From assembly GCA_017472925.1 (NCBI GenBank), contig JAFUNS010000003.1, forward strand, positions 1 through 34,347: DNA of 34,347 nt, read 5' to 3'. Both the position numbers and the translations under genes were made by a program. Under the pieces are notes generated by a model. The model saw nothing but the letters and a program-made list of their open reading frames with translations, was not told the DNA's origin and did no database searches. This document shows positions 26,943-34,347 of the stretch, piece after piece (positions within the stretch are counted from its first letter, which is position 1; every line of letters begins with the position of its first letter). The DNA is from Bacteroides sp. Its GTDB lineage: Bacteria; Bacteroidota; Bacteroidia; Bacteroidales; Bacteroidaceae.

Positions 26943-27084
26943 GGCAACGTTCTTGTCTGTTGCTGGCACAAAATAAGTAGATGAAAATTTTGTAAAAAGT
27001 AGACTCTACTGAAACTCTATTATTTATTTAACAGATAATAACAGTTTTGTTTGTTACGAAATATAAATATTACTGTTGATAGAA

Positions 27085-28182
27085 TTATTTCTTTTCTTGT
27101 TTTTTCTTATAATCCTTAGCAAACGTATTACTCATACTGTCGAAAATTTCCAAATGTGTTGGGAGTTCTACATCTTGTTTTGAATAGTTATTAGGTCTGG
27201 AAAATTTCTCATGTAAGAACTCTCCGAAAGCAATAAAAACTTTATTTATATCCATAGTCTTCCCCGTATTGTCATTAAAAGCTTCCATTTTACACAAAGA
27301 ATAAATAATTCTTCCCATATCGGTTTTGTTGATGTTTTTACTTAAATAAATAGGACTATAATCTATGTGGGTTAAAGAATTGTTTACTTTGTTATTCTCA
27401 TTGCTTTCGTTGAATTTATTGTTGATAAGCTCTGATTCTATTTTTATTTTCGCTTCTTCATATAGGGGATAAAAAGAGTCATCTAATAGCACTTCTTTCG
27501 CTGCTTCCCCGTATACATATTCAACTTCTTGTTTTTTCCCACGGTATTTTTTTTCAAAATAATCCTTAATCATTTCAAGAACAACTAATTGATCGCTTTT
27601 ATCCCTCCAAGGTAGATTTAAGAAATCGTAGAAATGCGTATCGACAAAATTACCACAAACAGAAATCTGCAAGGCATCACTGAAATCATCGAGTTCCCAA
27701 CAATAAATATGCTCGTTTATTCCTAATTTTATGGAAAAATTAAATATATACCGCGATTCAGTCTGCTCTACAAGTTCTTTAAAATGATGAAAGAAATTAT
27801 AATTGTCTAAAAAACGTTCCAAATCGTCCAAAAACTCAGAAGTCCCATCGATTCGTTTCTCTTGGACTGAAAAAATAGCATAAACCATTCCTGCAACAAT
27901 AAGCGCACAAGCCTCTTCGCCCATAGGAGAGAGTTCGGTATAAAAAGTTTTTTTATATTCATTGAAACTGCAACATCTCCCTGATATAGTCATACCTCCA
28001 CATTGTGAATATGTAGGATGAAAAAATAATGCTTTATGCCAATTGATACAATCAGGTAAGTGTTCTCTTAAGCATTCATTCAAAGTTTTTCTAAGCTTTT
28101 CATTAAAGGCATTATCACCAAGAATTTCATCATAATTCTTGTCTGTTCCAAAATGTTGTGCTATAATCTTATGTCTTATCAT
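27085..28182 (-). CDS. Unknown 365-aa protein, RteC-like C-terminal pattern
   Basis: 365 residues, A+T-rich codon use unlike the genes to the left. No signal peptide or clear membrane segment. The middle is rich in aromatic residues (W-H-K-A-L-F-F-H-P-T-Y). The C-terminal part has the helical pattern seen at the end of RteC-type and other Bacteroidetes mobile-element proteins (K-T-D-M-G-R-I-I-Y-S-L-C, then I-N-K-V-F-I-A-F-G-E-F-L). The family assignment is tentative. It stands alone and divergently from the structured RNA at 28.3 kb; a TACTTTTG -7 box is at 28210-28203. Confidence 0.82.
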   Translation of the reverse strand: MIRHKIIAQHFGTDKNYDEILGDNAFNEKLRKTLNECLREHLPDCINWHKALFFHPTYSQCGGMTISGRCCSFNEYKKTFYTELSPMGEEACALIVAGMVYAIFSVQEKRIDGTSEFLDDLERFLDNYNFFHHFKELVEQTESRYIFNFSIKLGINEHIYCWELDDFSDALQISVCGNFVDTHFYDFLNLPWRDKSDQLVVLEMIKDYFEKKYRGKKQEVEYVYGEAAKEVLLDDSFYPLYEEAKIKIESELINNKFNESNENNKVNNSLTHIDYSPIYLSKNINKTDMGRIIYSLCKMEAFNDNTGKTMDINKVFIAFGEFLHEKFSRPNNYSKQDVELPTHLEIFDSMSNTFAKDYKKKQEKK

Positions 28183-28202
28183 ATTTGTAAACTAATTTTT
28201 TA

Positions 28203-28210
28203 CAAAAGTA
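28203..28210 (-). promoter_or_regulatory. Probable -7 box of the 365-aa gene
   Basis: TACTTTTG on the minus strand 20 bp upstream of the ATG at 28182. No TTTG at -33. It lies back-to-back with the RNA promoter at 28239. Confidence 0.45.
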
Positions 28211-28238
28211 GAAATTATAAATAAATAAGCACTCATTT

Positions 28239-28271
28239 TTTGTTGTAAATTAAATATTATCACTACATTTG
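28239..28271 (+). promoter_or_regulatory. Promoter of the 28.3-28.5 kb structured RNA
   Basis: TTTG (28239-28242), 21 bp, TACATTTG (28264-28271): a perfect match to the Bacteroidetes housekeeping promoter form. Transcription would start near 28278. Confidence 0.88.
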
Positions 28272-28277
28272 CGATAA

Positions 28278-28499
28278 TTCCGAAAGGAAAACATATTGAA
28301 ATGTGAGCGTTTAAGATATTATCCTGTTTGAGAATCTGGACAATTCTTCGATAGTGGATAATAAACAAGGACGCTCACGCCGTGGTTGTATATATCCTTA
28401 TAGTTATATACTTCATAGGGCGTGAGCTATTGTTTGTTACACTATCAAGGCAGTCCAGAGCCTTCAAACAGTGACATTCAATAGTCTTGCGCCTTTTTG
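28278..28499 (+). ncRNA. Structured RNA with long interrupted hairpin, 6S-RNA-like
   Basis: No protein frame fits. After the promoter comes a small hairpin (TTCC-GAAA-GGAA, 28278-28289), then one long stem-loop built of paired blocks: AAGATATT 28313-28320 with 28480-28488 (one bulge), CTGTTTGA 28324-28331 with 28464-28471, TCTGGAC 28335-28341 with 28453-28459, GATAGTG 28350-28356 with 28440-28446, GCTCACGCC 28373-28381 with 28419-28427, and GTATATA 28388-28394 with 28405-28411. Between the GATAGTG and GCTCACGCC stems is an asymmetric A+T-rich bubble (16 and 12 nt). A GCG/CGC pair followed by CTTTTTG (28494-28500) closes it as a terminator. Long hairpin plus central bubble is the plan of 6S RNA; the Bacteroidales-1 Rfam motif is a possible match. 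Identity not confirmed. Confidence 0.75.
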
Positions 28500-28534
28500 T
28501 TGTATGTATATTTAGAAACATTAAATTAATAATT

Positions 28535-29218
28535 ATGAACAGAATTGTTTTATTTCTATGCTTTTATTTTATAAGCATGATTATGTATGCACAAGAGTAT
28601 ACTTGCGAAAAATTGAAGGAGGATATCACTGCTTGGAATGCTTGTACGAATAATAATAATACTAAATGGGCGAAAGCAATTTTAGAACAAGGAGCTTTTA
28701 AACAAAACGTTGATGGAAGTTTTGAGTATGTATACATTATGAATACAGAAGATAGCGTAGATATTAAAGCTTTAAGAAATATAAGTTTTAATTATATTGG
28801 ACTAAATTTCAATATTGATAACGCTGTGCGTGCTGATATGGAAACAAACAGTCCGGATAATGGGGTTATATTTCAAGGAAAACTTATAGGAATAGGAGAA
28901 TTTGTAGGTTTTGGTGAATATAATAAAATTAATGGTAATGTTCATTTTGATATCAGATTTAAACCAGATAGGGTGAGATTCTCTGTGAAAATACAAGATT
29001 ATCAAGTTCTAAAATATATTGATGGAACTTTAGTTCAAAACTACATAGCATTAGTGAAAGACACTTTCCCTTTAAATCCAGATTCTAATCATAAAAAAAG
29101 TTATGCTATGGCTTTTATTAATGCCAATAGTAAATGTCTGAACTTTGCAAGCAGCTATTTAAGCCACTTAAATAAGCATGTAAAAGTAAGCCAACCAACA
29201 GATTTAGAAGATTGGTGA
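28535..29218 (+). CDS. Exported protein, possibly DUF4468-like
   Basis: 227 residues from ATG at 28535, which gives a signal peptide (M-N-R-I-V-L-F-L-C-F-Y-F-I... M-Y-A-Q, cleavage near residue 19-20). An earlier in-frame TTG at 28487 lies in the RNA terminator and is unlikely. The mature part has an N-terminal helical piece followed by beta-rich segments, with V-H-F-D-I-R-F-K-P-D-R-V-R-F-S-V-K-I, a pattern like DUF4468 (TBP-like fold); that is tentative. Possibly transcribed together with the next two exported proteins, starting 36 nt after the RNA's T run. Confidence 0.8.
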   Translation: MNRIVLFLCFYFISMIMYAQEYTCEKLKEDITAWNACTNNNNTKWAKAILEQGAFKQNVDGSFEYVYIMNTEDSVDIKALRNISFNYIGLNFNIDNAVRADMETNSPDNGVIFQGKLIGIGEFVGFGEYNKINGNVHFDIRFKPDRVRFSVKIQDYQVLKYIDGTLVQNYIALVKDTFPLNPDSNHKKSYAMAFINANSKCLNFASSYLSHLNKHVKVSQPTDLEDW

Positions 29219-29258
29219 TTTATAAAGCATATCGCTAGATTATTAAATAAATAATAGT

Positions 29259-29804
29259 ATGAAAAAGATTATTATTTTTACATTGTTGGCTATAGTTTCG
29301 TCAAGTGTAACATATGCACAAAACAGTTCTAAAAGTTTTATAAGGTGGAATAAAGCTGTAGGAATTGGTGTCGGATACACTAATATGTTTCAAGAATTTA
29401 CTACACAATACGAGGGTATTTCTGCACCCCAAGATTTAATACATTTTGATTTTACTATTTATGGTGCATACATAGGAGTTGATGCCAAAGTTAAGAACAC
29501 CGGTTATGATGTTTTTGGATATGATGAACAATTAGGGACATGGGCTATTAAGGTCGGTCCTTCATTCAGAATTGGACGTTTTGAGAATTGGAGATGTATT
29601 TTTACTCCATATGTTGGTGCAACTTTTTATACCTTATCCGATACTTCTAATAATGCCATAGGTGCACGTGATGAATATGGAGCAAAAGAAACTAAATTTT
29701 TGGGAGGGTATAGAATTGCAGCAGCTTATGATTGGTATTATATAAGTTTTCATTTTTCCACAAGAGAGTTAGGATTCTCTGTTGGCATTGATTTTGAGTT
29801 GTAA
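29259..29804 (+). CDS. Outer-membrane beta-barrel-like protein, unknown
   Basis: 181 residues with a signal peptide (about 1-20, ending V-T-Y-A-Q). Alternating hydrophobic/polar strands rich in Gly, Tyr and Phe (G-I-G-V-G-Y-T, G-A-Y-I-G-V-D-A-K, F-T-P-Y-V-G-A-T-F-Y) and an aromatic-acidic C-terminus (S-V-G-I-D-F-E-L) suggest a small porin-like barrel. The gap to the previous gene is 40 bp and to the next 38 bp on the same strand, so the three are likely one unit. No specific family recognised. Confidence 0.8.
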   Translation: MKKIIIFTLLAIVSSSVTYAQNSSKSFIRWNKAVGIGVGYTNMFQEFTTQYEGISAPQDLIHFDFTIYGAYIGVDAKVKNTGYDVFGYDEQLGTWAIKVGPSFRIGRFENWRCIFTPYVGATFYTLSDTSNNAIGARDEYGAKETKFLGGYRIAAAYDWYYISFHFSTRELGFSVGIDFEL

Positions 29805-29842
29805 GTTGGTGCTATTTTTATGTTAGATTTTAATTAATAAAT

Positions 29843-30487
29843 ATGAGAAAAATTATAATGGGCATGGTTTTAACCATGAGTTTGGCTTCATGTTCTGTGC
29901 AACAGTTTACAACTACGAATATTATCGATTATTCAGAATTTGCCAAACAGGGTATTTTTGTGAGTGAATCCAATTCTGTAAGCTTCGATTATCAGCCATT
30001 GGGCAGTGTGGTTTCTGTAACTCAAGGGGCAAACTCGTTGTTCTTTATGCAGAAAATTGATGCAAACAAGGCTTTTAAGGAAATCAGTGCAAAAGTGAAG
30101 TCTGTAGGAGGAAATGGCCTTATTAACTTTAAATACAATGTGATGGCTGCAAAGTCGTCTTATTTAATGACGGTTACAGGAATGGCAATTCGAATAGACA
30201 ATCCTCCAATCGTGGAGGAAAGTCTTCCCGTTGTTGAAAAGCCAAAAACTGATATTCATGTGGATGGAATACATTGTTTCATCTATAAGAGGTTTCAGTC
30301 GGGGATTGCTGTGATGACAGATGGGGTTCTTACAGTTGGCCAAGCAAAGATTGTTTATAAAGAGTTTGCATTAAAAAGAATAGAATATCAATTCTTCTTG
30401 CCTAATACTAAGGCTCCATACATGGCAATTACAGACAATGGATATATTGTAGATTACAAGACCAATGAATTCATTCCTTTGGAATAG
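29843..30487 (+). CDS. Lipoprotein of unknown function
   Basis: 214 residues with a lipoprotein signal (M-R-K-I-I-M-G-M-V-L-T-M-S-L-A-S-C, lipid-bearing Cys17). The N-terminal domain (about 30-135) contains the repeated pattern F-K-E-I-S-A-K-V-K-S-V-G-G-N-G-L-I-N-F, seen in small heavy-metal-binding-like (YbjQ-like) folds, which I note only as resemblance. A Pro-rich linker (V-E-E-S-L-P-V-V-E-K-P-K) joins it to a C-terminal part of about 70 residues. Last gene of the exported set, followed by a strong terminator. Confidence 0.78.
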   Translation: MRKIIMGMVLTMSLASCSVQQFTTTNIIDYSEFAKQGIFVSESNSVSFDYQPLGSVVSVTQGANSLFFMQKIDANKAFKEISAKVKSVGGNGLINFKYNVMAAKSSYLMTVTGMAIRIDNPPIVEESLPVVEKPKTDIHVDGIHCFIYKRFQSGIAVMTDGVLTVGQAKIVYKEFALKRIEYQFFLPNTKAPYMAITDNGYIVDYKTNEFIPLE

Positions 30488-30491
30488 AAAT

Positions 30492-30515
30492 TTATCAAAG
30501 TAAAAGTGATGCAAT
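30492..30515 (+). repeat. 24-bp direct repeat, copy 1
   Basis: TTATCAAAGTAAAAGTGATG plus CAAT, identical over all 24 bp and in the same orientation at 32380-32403. The two copies bracket the HTH gene and the YoeB-type pair. Confidence 0.85.
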
Positions 30516-30526
30516 AACCCACAAAT

Positions 30527-30562
30527 AAACCGGCAGCCGCCAAATGGTTGTCGGTTTTATTT
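30527..30562 (+). terminator. Rho-independent terminator after the exported-protein unit
   Basis: AAACCGGCAGCC pairs over 12 bp with GGTTGTCGGTTT (two G-T pairs), loop of 7, followed by TATTT. It lies 40 bp after the lipoprotein stop. Confidence 0.85.
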
Positions 30563-30634
30563 CCTCGTCATGATATAAGCTTTTGTTTCCGATAAATGCA
30601 AAATGGCTAATGCTTTTATTTTATGTGAGGATAA

Positions 30635-30666
30635 TTTGATTCTCGCACCAAACATAATTATATTTG
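30635..30666 (+). promoter_or_regulatory. Promoter of the HTH gene
   Basis: TTTG (30635-30638), 20 bp, TATATTTG (30659-30666): a perfect Bacteroidetes promoter 56 bp before the ATG at 30723. Confidence 0.85.
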
Positions 30667-30722
30667 CAGCAGATAAATAAAGATAATAAAAGGATAGTAA
30701 ATAACCAAAAGCACACATCTAT

Positions 30723-31205
30723 ATGGGAAATGATAAAATCAGACAAGAGGTATACCAGTACTTGCCCGAACTGTTGAAGTATGTAAAGTCAAAAGCCTTA
30801 GCAGCCGAGATGGGAAAGTCTATTCAGTGGCTTACTTCCAGAGTAAACCGTCAGAAGAATGGTAAGTACAGCATCCGTCAGTTTCGCCCTGAAGATATGG
30901 AACTACTGAACAAGGCCATTGAGCGAATAGCCAACCGCTTGCTGGCTGTAACCATTAATTACAGTGATGACCGACAAGAGGTGATTGACGAGATTCGCAG
31001 CAAACTTAACGAATTGTTTATCAAGTCGATAGTAGTAGATAAGATGGGTTGGACAGATTCCAAGCTGAGAGTTACGATGTCGAACAGTACAAGTAAGGGA
31101 CACATTCTTACTTTCACCGCATCCGATGTACAGCAGATAACCCTCGCCGTTCGTGAGATTGCCATGCGAATGCTTTCTGTAGAATACTACCTGGACCAAG
31201 AGTAA
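30723..31205 (+). CDS. Small helix-turn-helix protein with internal duplication (DUF5053-like)
   Basis: 160 residues, cytoplasmic. The two halves look alike: A-L-A-A-E-M-G-K-S-I-Q-W-L-T-S-R-V followed by L-N-K-A-I-E-R-I-A-N-R-L-L-A-V in the first, and V-V-D-K-M-G-W-T-D-S-K-L-R-V-T-M followed by I-T-L-A-V-R-E-I-A-M-R-M-L-S-V in the second. Each half reads as a HTH plus a long helix, so a DNA-binding role is likely. DUF5053, a small family of Bacteroidetes mobile DNA, fits but is not certain. Own promoter; followed by two hairpins. Confidence 0.82.
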   Translation: MGNDKIRQEVYQYLPELLKYVKSKALAAEMGKSIQWLTSRVNRQKNGKYSIRQFRPEDMELLNKAIERIANRLLAVTINYSDDRQEVIDEIRSKLNELFIKSIVVDKMGWTDSKLRVTMSNSTSKGHILTFTASDVQQITLAVREIAMRMLSVEYYLDQE

Positions 31206-31229
31206 TTCCATACCTATATATATAATAAA

Positions 31230-31257
31230 GGTGGGCGGACAGCTCCGCACCTCTCTT
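31230..31257 (+). terminator. Terminator 1 after the HTH gene
   Basis: GGTGGGCGGA-cagc-TCCGCACC stem-loop with one bulged G, then TCTCTTT. It is 25 bp after the stop codon. Confidence 0.75.
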
Positions 31258-31263
31258 TAGATT

Positions 31264-31293
31264 GCCCGGACAGACCAGTTCGGGCTATTTTTA
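31264..31293 (+). terminator. Terminator 2 after the HTH gene
   Basis: GCCCG, a 12-nt loop, CGGGC, followed by TATTTTTA. Tandem with the previous hairpin. The rest of the gap to the next gene (31294-31544) shows no convincing gene. Confidence 0.65.
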
Positions 31294-31545
31294 TGTCCTT
31301 GCCTTACTTCCCCAAAAAAAGCGTAACTCATTGGATGCTAGTAAAATTGCCGATCAAAACTTCCCGATTTCACGAAAGCGACCAATGAATATACTTACAT
31401 CATTGTCTGTCCTCGCTATAGTTGTATCACATTATTCGTTTCAATAACACATCATCGGTCGTTTATACATATTCCACTTCGTTTAGAATTTGATATAGCC
31501 TAAAACAGCTTCGATAAATTGTTTGTCTTTCATGTTTTAATTATA

Positions 31546-31598
31546 TTAATTATTATCATTTCGGTTACGTTTTAATTATTATTTCAGTTACGTTTTTT
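31546..31598 (+). promoter_or_regulatory. Operator-like direct repeats upstream of the YoeB-type pair
   Basis: TTAATTATTAT-CA-TTTCGGTTACGTTTT (31546-31573) and TTAATTATTAT-TTCAGTTACGTTTT (about 31572-31597) are near-identical tandem copies, about 25-27 bp apart. The second runs into the -33 box of the promoter at 31596. This is the expected layout for autorepression by an antitoxin. Confidence 0.65.
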
Positions 31599-31626
31599 GC
31601 TTTTTTAAAACTTATGTCTACATTTG
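31596..31626 (+). promoter_or_regulatory. Promoter of the YoeB-type pair
   Basis: TTTG (31596-31599), 19 bp, TACATTTG (31619-31626), 26 bp before the antitoxin ATG. Confidence 0.87.
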
Positions 31627-31652
31627 CATTCAAACCAATAAACTGATTCAAT

Positions 31653-31919
31653 ATGAACACTTCGCAAATTAATGCTGAAATATTCCGTAACCTTGCTGCT
31701 TTAGCAGAAAGCGAGGATATGCTTGCCCGTGCTGCCAAATATCTGCGTAAGTTAGTAAAGGAACAACAGCAGAAGGCCGACTCCACATTGATGAGTAAGG
31801 AAGAATTCTTTGAAAAGCTCGACAAAGCGGAAGAAGAATATCGCCAAGGGAAATACACCACTTTGTTGCCCGGCGAATCTGTAGCCGATATGCTAAAACG
31901 TTGTGGTTATGGCATATGA
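31653..31919 (+). CDS. Type II antitoxin of the YoeB/Txe pair
   Basis: 88 residues, highly charged and helical. The N-terminal stretch (M-N-T-S-Q-I-N-A-E-I-F-R-N-L) would dimerise and bind DNA, and the acidic C-terminal part (K-L-D-K-A-E-E-E-Y-R-Q-G-K) would wrap the toxin. It overlaps the toxin start by 11 bp. It should neutralise the toxin and bind the tandem repeats in front of the gene. The family inference comes from partner and size; no classic Phd/RelB motif is distinct. Confidence 0.83.
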   Translation: MNTSQINAEIFRNLAALAESEDMLARAAKYLRKLVKEQQQKADSTLMSKEEFFEKLDKAEEEYRQGKYTTLLPGESVADMLKRCGYGI

Positions 31920-32184
31920 AATCCGATTCACAGACTTGGCTAATCAAGGTTTGGCCAAGTTGGCCAAGAGCGAACCAAAAGCCTTTCAGAAGGCTTTGCG
32001 TTTTGTTGAAGAACTGAAGGTTAATCCTCGTATGGGTACGGGACATCCTGAACCTCTCAAAGGTGAACCTCAAGGGCGTTGGAGTCGCGAAATAACCAAG
32101 AAGCATCGTATGGTTTATCGCATCTTCGAGAACGAAGTGCTGGTGCTTGTCATTTCTGCGTACGGGCATTATGATGATAAATGA
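31909..32184 (+). CDS. YoeB/Txe-family mRNA-interferase toxin
   Basis: 91 residues from ATG at 31909; a GTG two codons earlier is also possible. Family pattern: G-T-G-H-P-E-P-L-K-G, then G-R-W-S-R-E-I with R60, K-H-R-M-V-Y, and the C-terminal G-H-Y at 86-88, which contains the general acid/base His of YoeB. The expected action is ribosome-dependent cleavage of mRNA. All expected catalytic positions look intact (E48, R60, H87), so it should be active. Confidence 0.92.
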   Translation: MAYEIRFTDLANQGLAKLAKSEPKAFQKALRFVEELKVNPRMGTGHPEPLKGEPQGRWSREITKKHRMVYRIFENEVLVLVISAYGHYDDK

Positions 32185-32379
32185 TGTCATAACTGTTGTT
32201 TTATTATCCTATTACCAATCTAAGATTGAAGAAATTTGCCGAATCGCAAAGTCTTTTGGAACAATACGTGTAGAAATTAAGCGAAATGGAAATTTCCCTG
32301 AAAGAGATAGAAAGTGATGTCACTTGGGATTCCAATTATGAGTTTATCACGACTGAACGTGATTGGGCATAACGGATGC

Positions 32380-32403
32380 TTATCAAAGTAAAAGTGATGC
32401 AAT
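32380..32403 (+). repeat. 24-bp direct repeat, copy 2
   Basis: Identical to 30492-30515 and in the same orientation. Confidence 0.85.
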
Positions 32404-32659
32404 GTTCCACAATCAATCGTCAGTCCTTTAAAATCAAAAAGTGAATCAATAATTACTTTGTATTGCATAAAAAACATACTATTTTATGCAGTACAAGATA
32501 ATTATTGAATAAAATCGATTCTGAAATTCTTTATTCTCTCAGCCGGAACTCTCCGGAAAGTTACCGAGGTTTAACCTTCATCGAATTCGGTAGGATTGTA
32601 TAATATCCATTCCTAAAGTTATTTTTTAAGAAAATCGGACGGGGCAACCGAAATTCTTG

Positions 32660-32690
32660 TTTGTTTTCTCGAAGATTCTTATTACTTTTG
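32660..32690 (+). promoter_or_regulatory. Promoter of the DUF3791-DUF3990-DUF3791 operon
   Basis: TTTG (32660-32663), 19 bp, TACTTTTG (32683-32690), 60 bp before the first ATG. Confidence 0.87.
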
Positions 32691-32750
32691 TTCCTATTAT
32701 GGCATAAGCCTGAATTATAAATGCCTGTTCAGTAATAAAAAGAAATTGCT

Positions 32751-32969
32751 ATGGATAAAAAGACACTTGAATTTGTGACATTCTGCATCGGAAAACTTTC
32801 CGCTCTACTGAATTTGCCACAACAAGAAATATACAAACGTCTGAAACGTTCTGGCATCTTGTATGATTACATCGTACCCTCATACGATGTGCTCCATACA
32901 TTCAGCTCACGCTATTTGATGGAAGACCTTACTGAATACATGAGGGAGAAAGGGGTTTTGGAAGTATGA
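32751..32969 (+). CDS. DUF3791 small protein, first of two
   Basis: 72 residues, helical, no signal. F-V-T-F-C-I-G-K-L-S at the start, then L-P-Q-Q-E-I-Y-K-R-L and V-L-H-T-F-S-S-R-Y-L-M-E-D-L, a pattern of the DUF3791 family, which is regularly encoded next to DUF3990. The stop overlaps the start of the DUF3990 gene by 4 bp (ATGA). Possible antitoxin or accessory role; unproven. Confidence 0.85.
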   Translation: MDKKTLEFVTFCIGKLSALLNLPQQEIYKRLKRSGILYDYIVPSYDVLHTFSSRYLMEDLTEYMREKGVLEV

Positions 32970-33439
32970 AACTATACCATTCATCAAACGTTATTGTTGA
33001 GAATCCGGATACCAGACATTCTCGCAAATACCTTGATTTTGGACGTGGATTTTATCTTACTTCATTGCATGAACAGGCTGTAAGATATGCACAACGTTTT
33101 AAAAGAAGGGGTCAGCAGGCTTGGCTCAATACATACGAGTTTTTTATGGATGATGATTCGCAATGGAACATCATGAAATTTGACACTTACGATAAGCATT
33201 GGCTTGATTTTGTAGCTCAATGTAGGGATGGTAAAGATGTTGGCGATTACGATATGATTATAGGAGGCATTGCCAATGACAGAGTTATCATTACTCTTGA
33301 CAGATATTTTGCCAATGAAATTTCGCAAGAAGAAGCGCTTGGATTTTTACGGTTCGAAAAACCCAATATACAATATTGCATACGTTCAGAACGTATGCTG
33401 CAGGAATGTCTTACCTATCTTGATAGTGAACAGATATGA
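32966..33439 (+). CDS. DUF3990 protein, ADP-ribosyltransferase-like
   Basis: 157 residues, cytoplasmic. The N-terminus M-K-L-Y-H5-S-S and D-F-G-R-G-F-Y30-L-T fit the His and Tyr of an H-Y-x ADP-ribosyltransferase NAD site; then D-Y-D-M-I-I-G-G-I-A-N-D-R-V and the family's C-terminal P-N-I-Q-Y-C-I-R-S-E. A third catalytic residue cannot be assigned with confidence. Position between two DUF3791 genes with 4-bp overlaps at both ends suggests a toxin with bound partners. The toxin role is inferred, not shown. Confidence 0.85.
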   Translation: MKLYHSSNVIVENPDTRHSRKYLDFGRGFYLTSLHEQAVRYAQRFKRRGQQAWLNTYEFFMDDDSQWNIMKFDTYDKHWLDFVAQCRDGKDVGDYDMIIGGIANDRVIITLDRYFANEISQEEALGFLRFEKPNIQYCIRSERMLQECLTYLDSEQI

Positions 33440-33672
33440 GCGAGGACAGTAAACAAATAATGAAAAGCGCCCAATGCGCCAGGATTATTTTATGTATCAG
33501 TGAAATGTTCGGTGTTACCCTCAATGAAGCAACCGACATTTACTATAATTCTGAAACTGCCAATATGATAGAGGAGGGGGTGGCCGATTTGCATTGCCGT
33601 AGCGACAAATATTTGGCCGAAGAAATATGGAATGAACATCAAGAAGCTGGACAATCAATGAACAAGCCTTGA
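33436..33672 (+). CDS. DUF3791 small protein, second of two
   Basis: 78 residues, helical and acidic. L-C-I-S-E-M-F-G-V-T-L-N-E-A-T, then D-L-H-C-R-S-D-K-Y-L-A-E-E-I-W-N-E, aligns in layout with V-L-H-T-F-S-S-R-Y-L-M-E-D-L of the first DUF3791 protein, so the two are distant paralogues. It begins inside the DUF3990 stop (ATGA overlap). Diverged enough from the first copy that they may do different jobs. Confidence 0.83.
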   Translation: MSEDSKQIMKSAQCARIILCISEMFGVTLNEATDIYYNSETANMIEEGVADLHCRSDKYLAEEIWNEHQEAGQSMNKP

Positions 33673-33709
33673 TTTTTCATCTCCGCATCATCGGGCACAA
33701 TAATCGGTT

Positions 33710-33763
33710 TGCCGAAAATCTCATAATTTAAAACCCGTAAAATGCCGAAAATCTCATAATTTA
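33710..33763. repeat. 33-bp tandem repeat that ends the RelE-type toxin gene
   Basis: TGCCGAAAATCTCATAATTT(A) occurs at 33710-33730 and again at 33743-33763, a period of 33 bp with AAACCCGTAAAA between. The stop codon of the toxin on the minus strand (TAA, 33763-33761) is the first three bases of the second copy. May be the remaining end of an insertion sequence; no transposase is present. Confidence 0.75.
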
Positions 33764-33952
33764 GGGCATAAGAGGTTCTTTGTAGATGTTTAGTCTGATT
33801 TTCCATATATCTTCGAGGATTTCCACACCCTGGCGTGGATTGGCTTGGAGTGAAACTAACAATGCCTCAAAATCGGCCTCCAAAGATTTGTGTTTCTTCT
33901 TTAATCGCTTGTAGGCCGATTTGAACTCGTCGGAAATTCTGATTTTCATCAT
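33761..33952 (-). pseudogene. RelE/ParE-type toxin, C-terminally truncated
   Basis: 63 codons from ATG at 33952. The N-terminal RelE/ParE pattern is clear: I-S-D-E-F-K-S-A-Y-K-R-L-K-K-K, L-V-S-L-Q-A-N-P-R-Q-G-V-E, W-K-I-R-L-N-I. Complete members go on for about 30-40 residues (usually a G-K-G-x-S-G-G-x-R-V-I-T stretch plus strands of the active site), all missing here. The reading frame instead ends P-L-M-P at the tandem repeat. It overlaps the antitoxin stop by 4 bp. Likely non-toxic; it could still bind the antitoxin. Confidence 0.75.
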
Positions 33953-34143
33953 AGGGCGCGCAATGCTTCTATGGCTTCTTCCATACTCATGGCAGGTGCC
34001 TTTTCCGCTTGCTTCATGCCTTTGCGAATGGATGCAGCCACCTTGTATGATTCTTCCAATTTTTGAAGATGATTCCAACGGCGTCGGCTCATCCGTACGG
34101 TTACTAAATTGGCTTCTTGTGATATGACAGATGTTTGCAGCAT
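33949..34143 (-). CDS. Antitoxin of the truncated RelE-type pair
   Basis: 64 residues. The N-terminal strand/helix (A-N-L-V-T-V-R-M-S-R-R-R-W-N-H-L) looks like a small ribbon-helix-helix DNA-binding part, and the tail (M-S-M-E-E-A-I-E-A-L-R-A-L) an amphipathic toxin-binding helix. The gene is intact and has its own promoter, although the toxin is cut short. Confidence 0.78.
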   Translation of the reverse strand: MLQTSVISQEANLVTVRMSRRRWNHLQKLEESYKVAASIRKGMKQAEKAPAMSMEEAIEALRAL

Positions 34144-34166
34144 AATTTTATCTTTTTAGGTATATG

Positions 34167-34197
34167 CAAAAATATCAATTATTTCTTTATCTGCAAA
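34167..34197 (-). promoter_or_regulatory. Promoter of the RelE-type pair
   Basis: TTTG (34197-34194), 19 bp, TATTTTTG (34174-34167) on the minus strand, 24 bp before the antitoxin ATG. Confidence 0.87.
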
Positions 34198-34255
34198 GAA
34201 AATGCAGAAACTTCATTTGAGAGTTAACCTCATTTAATGGTTTGTCTTATCCGAT

Positions 34256-34300
34256 AAAGTGGTTACGGTTACAGTAGTTACAGTTTATTTTGCGCACACA
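34256..34300 (+). repeat. GTTACAG-type tract, relative of the one at 23344
   Basis: AAAGTGGTTACGGTTACAGT then AGTTACAGTTTATTTTGCGC aligns with the minus-strand tract after the VirE/DUF3987 stop (GTGGTTACAG..AGTTACAG..TTATTTTGC). Inverted relative to that copy. Nothing else is recognised from 34201 to the right edge. Confidence 0.55.
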
Positions 34301-34347
34301 TAGTACCCTTGAAATAATTTAAAACCGAATTATTATATTTATATATA

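Follow-up and report, generated by a model that had tools for sequence, protein, structure and literature searches.

Three overlapping genes in the window, the stretch of 34,347 nucleotides of Bacteroides sp. DNA that was analysed, form an operon in which the gene for a DUF3990 protein (B) lies between the genes for two proteins of the DUF3791 family (A and C). B carries a conserved set of residues that is predicted to be an ADP-ribosyltransferase (ART) site. The set is already catalogued by PADLOC as PDC-M13, a candidate phage defence system. What we add here is a two-module rule, namely that nearly every DUF3990 gene of the B type has two DUF3791 modules, split or fused, together with a likely link between PDC-M13 and PDC-M10. 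It follows from this rule that the A/C pair is probably the unit that restrains B.

The operon and its promoter

The features of the operon are as follows.

32660..32690, + strand: Bacteroidetes-type promoter, TTTG-N19-TACTTTTG (pattern match, 60 bases ahead of the ATG of A)
32751..32969, + strand: A, DUF3791 protein, 72 aa (Pfam PF12668, 3.4e-22; PADLOC PDC-M13A, 7.9e-25)
32966..33439, + strand: B, DUF3990 protein, 157 aa (Pfam PF13151, 6.4e-49; PADLOC PDC-M13B, 3.6e-53)
32978..32980, + strand: codon of H5 of B, position 1 of the predicted ART site (H in all 72 rows that have a letter there)
33053..33055, + strand: codon of Y30 of B, position 2 of the predicted ART site (Y in all 73 rows)
33371..33373, + strand: codon of Q136 of B, candidate for position 3 of the predicted ART site (Q in all 73 rows)
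33436..33672, + strand: C, diverged DUF3791 protein, 78 aa (PADLOC PDC-M13C, 1.2e-24)

The original prediction described three genes joined by two ATGA overlaps under one perfect promoter. The open reading frames and both joints were confirmed, each joint being an ATGA with a 4-base overlap (A/B at 32966-32969, B/C at 33436-33439). The promoter was found as well, with TTTG at 32660, a spacer of 19 bases, and TACTTTTG at 32683-32690, which fits the Bacteroidetes-type consensus. The plus strand of the window has five such two-part patterns, compared with 0.39 in mononucleotide shuffles. A sigma-70 promoter was rejected for the operon, since a sigma-70 scan gave nothing at its promoter region, and the Bacteroidetes-type promoter fits instead. 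In related loci, the -7 element TAnnTTTG is present within 200 bases upstream of A in 42 of 72, the expectation from shuffles being 7.1; both parts of the pattern together are present in this interval in only 6 of 72, with 0.2 expected.

The 4-base overlap recurs in the relatives, at 60 of 75 A/B junctions and 57 of 78 B/C junctions, when the start codons are set by script. The dN/dS ratio is 0.045-0.073 where it could be computed, which, among the seven relatives tried, was for A in three, for B in six, and for C in none, because dS was saturated for C. Since the gene order and the overlaps recur in relatives and dN/dS is low, the A-B-C operon is not a chance arrangement. The contig ends at 34347, which is also the end of the window, and the view downstream stops there.

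The predicted ART site of B

B matches Pfam PF13151 (DUF3990) over residues 1-149 with 166 bits, above the gathering score of 32.2. The alignment of B was made with 73 non-redundant relatives, taken from the 144 rows of at least 125 aa among 162. H5, D24, Y30, R87, G100, and Q136 never vary in these relatives (for H5, among the 72 rows that are not gapped there), G26, G28, F29, A38, and W79 each vary once among the 73, and D105 is D in 65 of the 73. The residues given for the Tox-ART-HYD2 family in the available text of Zhang 2012 (PMC3482391) are H, D, GFY, W, and R, and B has the whole of this set, as H5, D24, G28-F29-Y30, W79, and R87. H5 and Y30, the H and Y that the original prediction assigned to an ART-type NAD site, are both invariant.

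A profile comparison (hhalign) of B with 36 ART-PolyVal domains gave 96% and E 1.9e-9 over the first 43 residues only, and this match, together with the Tox-ART-HYD2 motif, upholds the description of B as an ART-type protein. ART-PolyVal is matched by 25 of 55 aligned B members at E <=1 (best 2.4e-5), and the window B has a match of its own of 14.5 bits, far under the Pfam cut-off of 31.2. A listing of the ART clan includes DUF3990, as far as can be told from the accessible part of PMC7955679. The triad of the CmdT toxin is given as HY-[E,D,Q] in the portion of PMC11618068 available, and for this reason H5-Y30-Q136 is a plausible, predicted ART site of B. In a forced global profile alignment, Q136 is placed over E116 of ART-PolyVal, just ahead of a conserved, strand-like 'YVAF', with low local confidence, and the ART-PolyVal column aligned with Q136 is itself variable, with E in 9 of 36. 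Q124 of ART-PolyVal was dropped as the counterpart of Q136, since the global alignment set Q136 over E116.

We infer that B is an ADP-ribosyltransferase of the HYD2 clade, with the fold and the NAD pocket being predicted from sequence. Links between this clade and toxin-antitoxin systems had been drawn before the present work. In the accessible sections of PMC3482391 and PMC5512222, the likeness of Tox-ART-HYD2 to B is in the residue set H, D, GFY, W, and R and in an overlapping spread over phyla. Unlike B, however, its members are described there as effector domains and as parts of polyvalent proteins, and the ARTs of the polyvalent proteins have D in strand 5 as the third residue, whereas B has the invariant Q136, which the forced global alignment sets close to that position with low local confidence. 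Searches of NCBIfam gave no match for A, B, or C at E <=10, and PHROGs gave weak matches only, the best being 0.0036 for B over residues 2-49. A sequence search of the PDB found no solved structure of a relative; one match each to ribosomal protein L16 (E 2.1) and to bat ACE2 (E 0.016) were set aside as chance matches.

Pairing of B with two DUF3791 modules

C alone matches no Pfam family, and in the alignment of C, 17 of the 42 members match PF12668 (DUF3791), the best at 4.2e-5. The profiles of A and C align with a probability of 76% and E 2.2e-5. By these profile matches C is classed as a diverged DUF3791 protein of the same family as A, in agreement with the earlier view of the outer two genes as diverged paralogues. 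Pfam finds no DNA-binding domain in A or C, with the members of the C family included, and a SecB-like chaperone family is matched by none of A, B, and C in Pfam, NCBIfam, or PADLOC. Among relatives, C varies most, with a mean distance of 0.52, compared with 0.43 for B and 0.39 for A. The pairwise distances over 68 loci are correlated, by 0.94 for A-B, 0.93 for B-C, and 0.91 for A-C, these values being without an outside control.

A genome scan gave 76 loci, mostly from metagenome-assembled genomes (MAGs) of Bacteroidales, many of them ruminant, and also from Treponema, Lachnospiraceae, Oscillospiraceae, and others. The gene orders were tallied for 141 distinct B, with ART-PolyVal loci and duplicates excluded, by means of competing A and C profiles, since the iterated A profile crossed into C. 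Both modules are found beside B in 122 of the 141. The order A-B-C accounts for 91 (3 at contig edges), B and then an A~C fusion protein for 8, B-C-A for 5, a fused C~A protein followed by B for 5, and C-A-B for 4 (1 at a contig edge). There are 9 longer, tandem, or B~C-fused forms, and A followed by B~C is among the orders found. One or both modules are missing for 19 B, which are 10 lone B, 2 A-B, 1 B-C, and 6 at contig edges. Among the 8 listed of the 10 lone B, which lie away from edges, 6 are on viral contigs and 2 are of the HTH subtype.

The pairing is also seen when whole genomes are counted. Among 295 Bacteroidales genomes, B is above the cut-off in 35, A in 36, and both in 30 (hypergeometric 5.6e-30); when the sampling is widened to the phylum, with 296 genomes, B is above the cut-off in 3 and A in 2. 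A Pfam DUF3791 gene lies within 600 bases of 56 of the 69 full-length B in the 295 Bacteroidales genomes, on the same strand in all. Nine of the 13 B with no nearby Pfam DUF3791 have a fused A~C partner, and the remaining four are two of a deviating subtype, one (L235) cut by the contig end, and one (L237) 39 bases from the contig start. In the same genomes, 62 of 77 A genes have B or a fragment of B within 600 bases, and 15 do not. This 600-base test omitted 14 of 83 B rows, which were fragments or below the cut-off, and 4 of 81 A rows; seven B fragments were restored when the A genes were examined for a nearby B.

The fusions occur in both orders, as C~A in L086, L087, L131, L137, L138, and L238 and as A~C in L003, L123, L125, L126, L130, L131, and L232-L234. 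The N-terminal half of the fused A~C partner is matched by the A profile and the C-terminal half by the C profile, the matches being weak in several copies. One locus without B has HTH_3~A~C in a single protein of 238 aa (L150:2674-3390), with a nearly identical copy in L151, and by its domains this protein has the usual shape of an antitoxin regulator. Since A and C share a family and occur fused in either order, they are most simply seen as the two parts of a single antitoxin. The deviating DUF3990 subtype has 221-225 aa and overlaps the gene for a protein of 211-215 aa (L165:2073-3381, L166:2924-4208). A C-terminal HTH_3 domain was found in this partner in L166, and L165 is alike by eye.

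The genome of the window has four B; three are in A-B-C sets, and the fourth (L003) has a fused A~C protein after it. The most DUF3990 matches per genome are up to 10 in G567 and 8 in G535, some of them fragments. Broken copies of B are found among the relatives (e.g., L054, L079, L089, L095, and L162); their pieces were searched separately and left unrepaired.

The PDC-M13 profiles for A, B, and C are matched by the three adjacent genes of the window. A also matches an M13C model (3.9e-10), and B also matches M13A and M10A models, as is expected for PDC-M13 models if gene order varies. No feature was found to distinguish the window copy from PDC-M13, the assignment being by profile names and matches. 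PDC-M13 is counted 3324 times in the rumen survey of PMC13356809, in the part available, which makes it a comparatively abundant candidate defence system there. PDCs derive from a 'guilt-by-embedding' approach and remain unvalidated, according to the accessible text of PMC12988326. In the literature searched, with preprints outside it, we found no functional study of a DUF3990-DUF3791 operon and no test of PDC-M13.

Genomic context and proposed function

Upstream of the operon, at 31653-32184 on the plus strand, there is a toxin gene of the RelE/YoeB type (Pfam YoeB_toxin, 3.9e-15), overlapped by a small gene ahead of it. By these matches the two are classed as a type II toxin-antitoxin (TA)-like pair, and neither has a PADLOC match. 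Downstream, at 33761-34143 on the minus strand, an ORF of 64 aa without a convincing family is followed by an ORF of 63 aa, which seems short, is weakly ParE-like (Pfam 0.037), and has no Pfam match at 1e-4. Of the two type II TA loci between which the operon had been placed, the downstream one is weak. The description of the region as defence-like is unsupported, as none of the 10 neighbouring proteins of the window matches PADLOC at 1e-3. The GC content is 0.30-0.32 at window positions 27001-30000, compared with 0.36-0.60 in the other 1-kb steps, which suggests foreign DNA upstream of the operon.

The flanks of the relatives were sampled by picking 250 proteins, 216 of which had at least 90 aa. 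After 26 were omitted (L101-L120, L150 and up), 148 of the remaining 190 were taken at random and 145 analysed, each cut to 330 aa, with no control set. No recurrent neighbour family was found among these 145 proteins. Among the best 25 of 160 Pfam families, the highest count is 4 of 145; among the best 25 of 102 PADLOC families, it is 3 of 145, for PDC-M10B. We infer that the three PDC-M10B matches are the A~C fusion proteins of L003, L126, and L130, and PDC-M13 and PDC-M10 may be one system in a split and a fused form.

Positions 29751 to 34347 of the window were compared by BLASTN with the 76 loci, and DNA similarity was found in 61. All of the matches lie within 32734-33647, except for one that starts at 32623 (L007). 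The 3 kb upstream and the 0.7 kb downstream in the window gave no match in the flanks of up to 3 kb at each locus. DNA similarity that stops near the ends of the operon looks like that of a mobile cassette. Relatives are present in 71 of 72,556 plasmid records; 42 of the 71 are named Bacteroides, and 28 are conjugative. On the plasmids of L086 and L090, a ParA gene is nearby, with one gene between, and on the conjugative plasmid pBF9343 (L238), a zeta toxin gene lies downstream of the C~A-B pair, with one small gene between. In a plasmid of Moraxella osloensis, hsdM, B, C, A, and hsdS follow each other with 4-base overlaps, and then come a transposase gene and hsdR. Of the four other Moraxella records, three list an RM subunit M gene under the match as well. 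Viral contigs, scanned with a pattern-based method, gave 26 relatives, none with more than 44% identity, and 7 of 50,697 phage records match, so phage carriage is not favoured as the main habitat. With one C~A fusion protein as the query, no match in the viral contigs was confirmed.

An ART-like enzyme with a regular partner unit, cassette borders, plasmid-maintenance genes, and a restriction-operon setting together indicate a TA module. The layout is also that of a type II TA system, with adjacent, overlapping small genes for an enzyme-like putative toxin and a protein partner and with one promoter-like site. We propose that A-B-C is a type II-like TA cassette that moves between genomes, with B as an ART toxin and A plus C as a two-part antitoxin, and we judge this proposal as a whole to be moderately probable. 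Several findings weigh against it: the window B is far under the Pfam cut-off for ART-PolyVal and its strong profile alignment spans 43 residues only, Pfam gives no DNA-binding domain for A or C, 19 of 141 B lack one or both modules, A-C pairs occur without B, and the flank sample has no recurrent neighbour family. B would be a small cytoplasmic enzyme of the ART fold with an H-Y-Q site that consumes NAD, either in marking a vital cell component or merely in destroying NAD. A and C, as diverged copies of one module, would jointly bind B and hold it off. If the A/C pair were lost or drawn off, because the element was lost, expression stopped, or a phage infected the cell, B would act and growth would stop, so that the element would be stabilised and a phage infection probably aborted. 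If B is toxic, this would be a widespread NAD-using growth-arrest switch for the plasmids and genomes of gut Bacteroidales. The motif, the ART-PolyVal profile, and the PDC-M13 matches agree with the original prediction to the extent that it saw a TA-like or defence-candidate system, made up of an ART-type protein and two paralogous partners. RES-Xre modules pair an NAD-degrading toxin with a protein antitoxin. Their toxin is of a family other than that of B, and their antitoxin is Xre, whereas the candidate antitoxin here is the DUF3791 pair.

The same mechanism could serve purely for the addiction of cells to mobile elements, with no function in defence. The odds of this reading overlap with those of our proposal, and we regard it as a real, though less than even, prospect. 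It would fit the cassette-like borders, the 71 plasmid records with 28 conjugative plasmids among them, the ParA or zeta toxin genes nearby, the lack of a recurrent neighbour family in the flank sample, and the 0 of 10 PADLOC matches around the window copy. However, the Moraxella copy is inside a type I restriction operon, PADLOC lists the set as candidate defence, and up to 10 matches per genome are poorly explained by addiction alone.

What is the function of the second DUF3791 protein? One of the pair might inhibit B while the other detects infection and controls the inhibitor, as in the toxin, neutraliser, and sensor first envisaged. In the available account of CmdTAC (PMC11618068), three genes encode an ART toxin, with the HY-[E,D,Q] triad, and its partners, and the system works with three parts. 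The separate, diverged genes that flank B in 91 of 141 cases, the greater variability of C (0.52, compared with 0.39 for A and 0.43 for B), as a sensor might have, and the Moraxella set inside a restriction operon would be consistent with such a division of labour. However, CmdT is partnered, by the same account, by a SecB-like chaperone and by an antitoxin whose C-terminal part is long and unstructured, whereas A and C are both DUF3791 modules of one family and match no SecB-like chaperone family, and a SecB-like gene is absent here. Furthermore, A and C are fused to each other, in both orders, in several relatives, and no defence genes were found among the 10 neighbours of the window copy. 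We consider this reading unlikely. One neutraliser and one sensor are less well supported than two halves of one antitoxin, which the C~A and A~C fusions fit better, although a sensor half would be compatible with the latter. It is more doubtful still that A and C form an obligate heterodimer, a split double-domain antitoxin with one half as a detachable sensor of phage or damage, which in type I restriction operons would be a guard that fires when restriction is blocked.

We think it quite improbable that B lacks toxicity and is an NAD-dependent regulator that uses its own DUF3791 partners as substrate. The regular pairing and the purifying selection would also fit this, but the cassette borders, the plasmid and restriction contexts, and the HTH partner of the sister subtype typify conflict systems. 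Bxa, with Bsi and BAH, is a Bacteroides ART with two cognate protective proteins, as described in the accessible part of PMC11699363; unlike B, it is a MuF-fused prophage protein with a catalytic glutamate, E820, and its partners, an ADP-ribosyl hydrolase and a structural blocker, are unlike A and C and are not described there as paralogues. A secreted antibacterial effector with two immunity proteins of this kind is the least credible reading of A-B-C, for although DUF3990 is found at the tip of Rhs proteins of Serratia and Enterobacter and is recognisable in the C-terminal part of Serratia Rhs5 and Enterobacter RhsA (PMC4524185 and PMC10763514, in the text available), B is a stand-alone protein of 157 aa with a Pfam match over 1-149 and thus no room for a trafficking domain, and A comes before B in the same overlapping operon.

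The proposed two-part antitoxin also has copies apart from B. A-C pairs without B are present in L153, L154, L155, L157, L158, L160, and L169, the last of these being in the window's own genome. It is possible that they are orphan antitoxins or that they serve another toxin. From these pairs and the 15 of 77 A genes without B, it follows that the pair has some use or persistence without the toxin. In L155, an ORF of 42 aa takes the place expected for B between A and C (L155:2799-2927, minus strand), with an ART-like 'YHGG' stretch near its start, and this ORF is perhaps a remnant or a different small partner.
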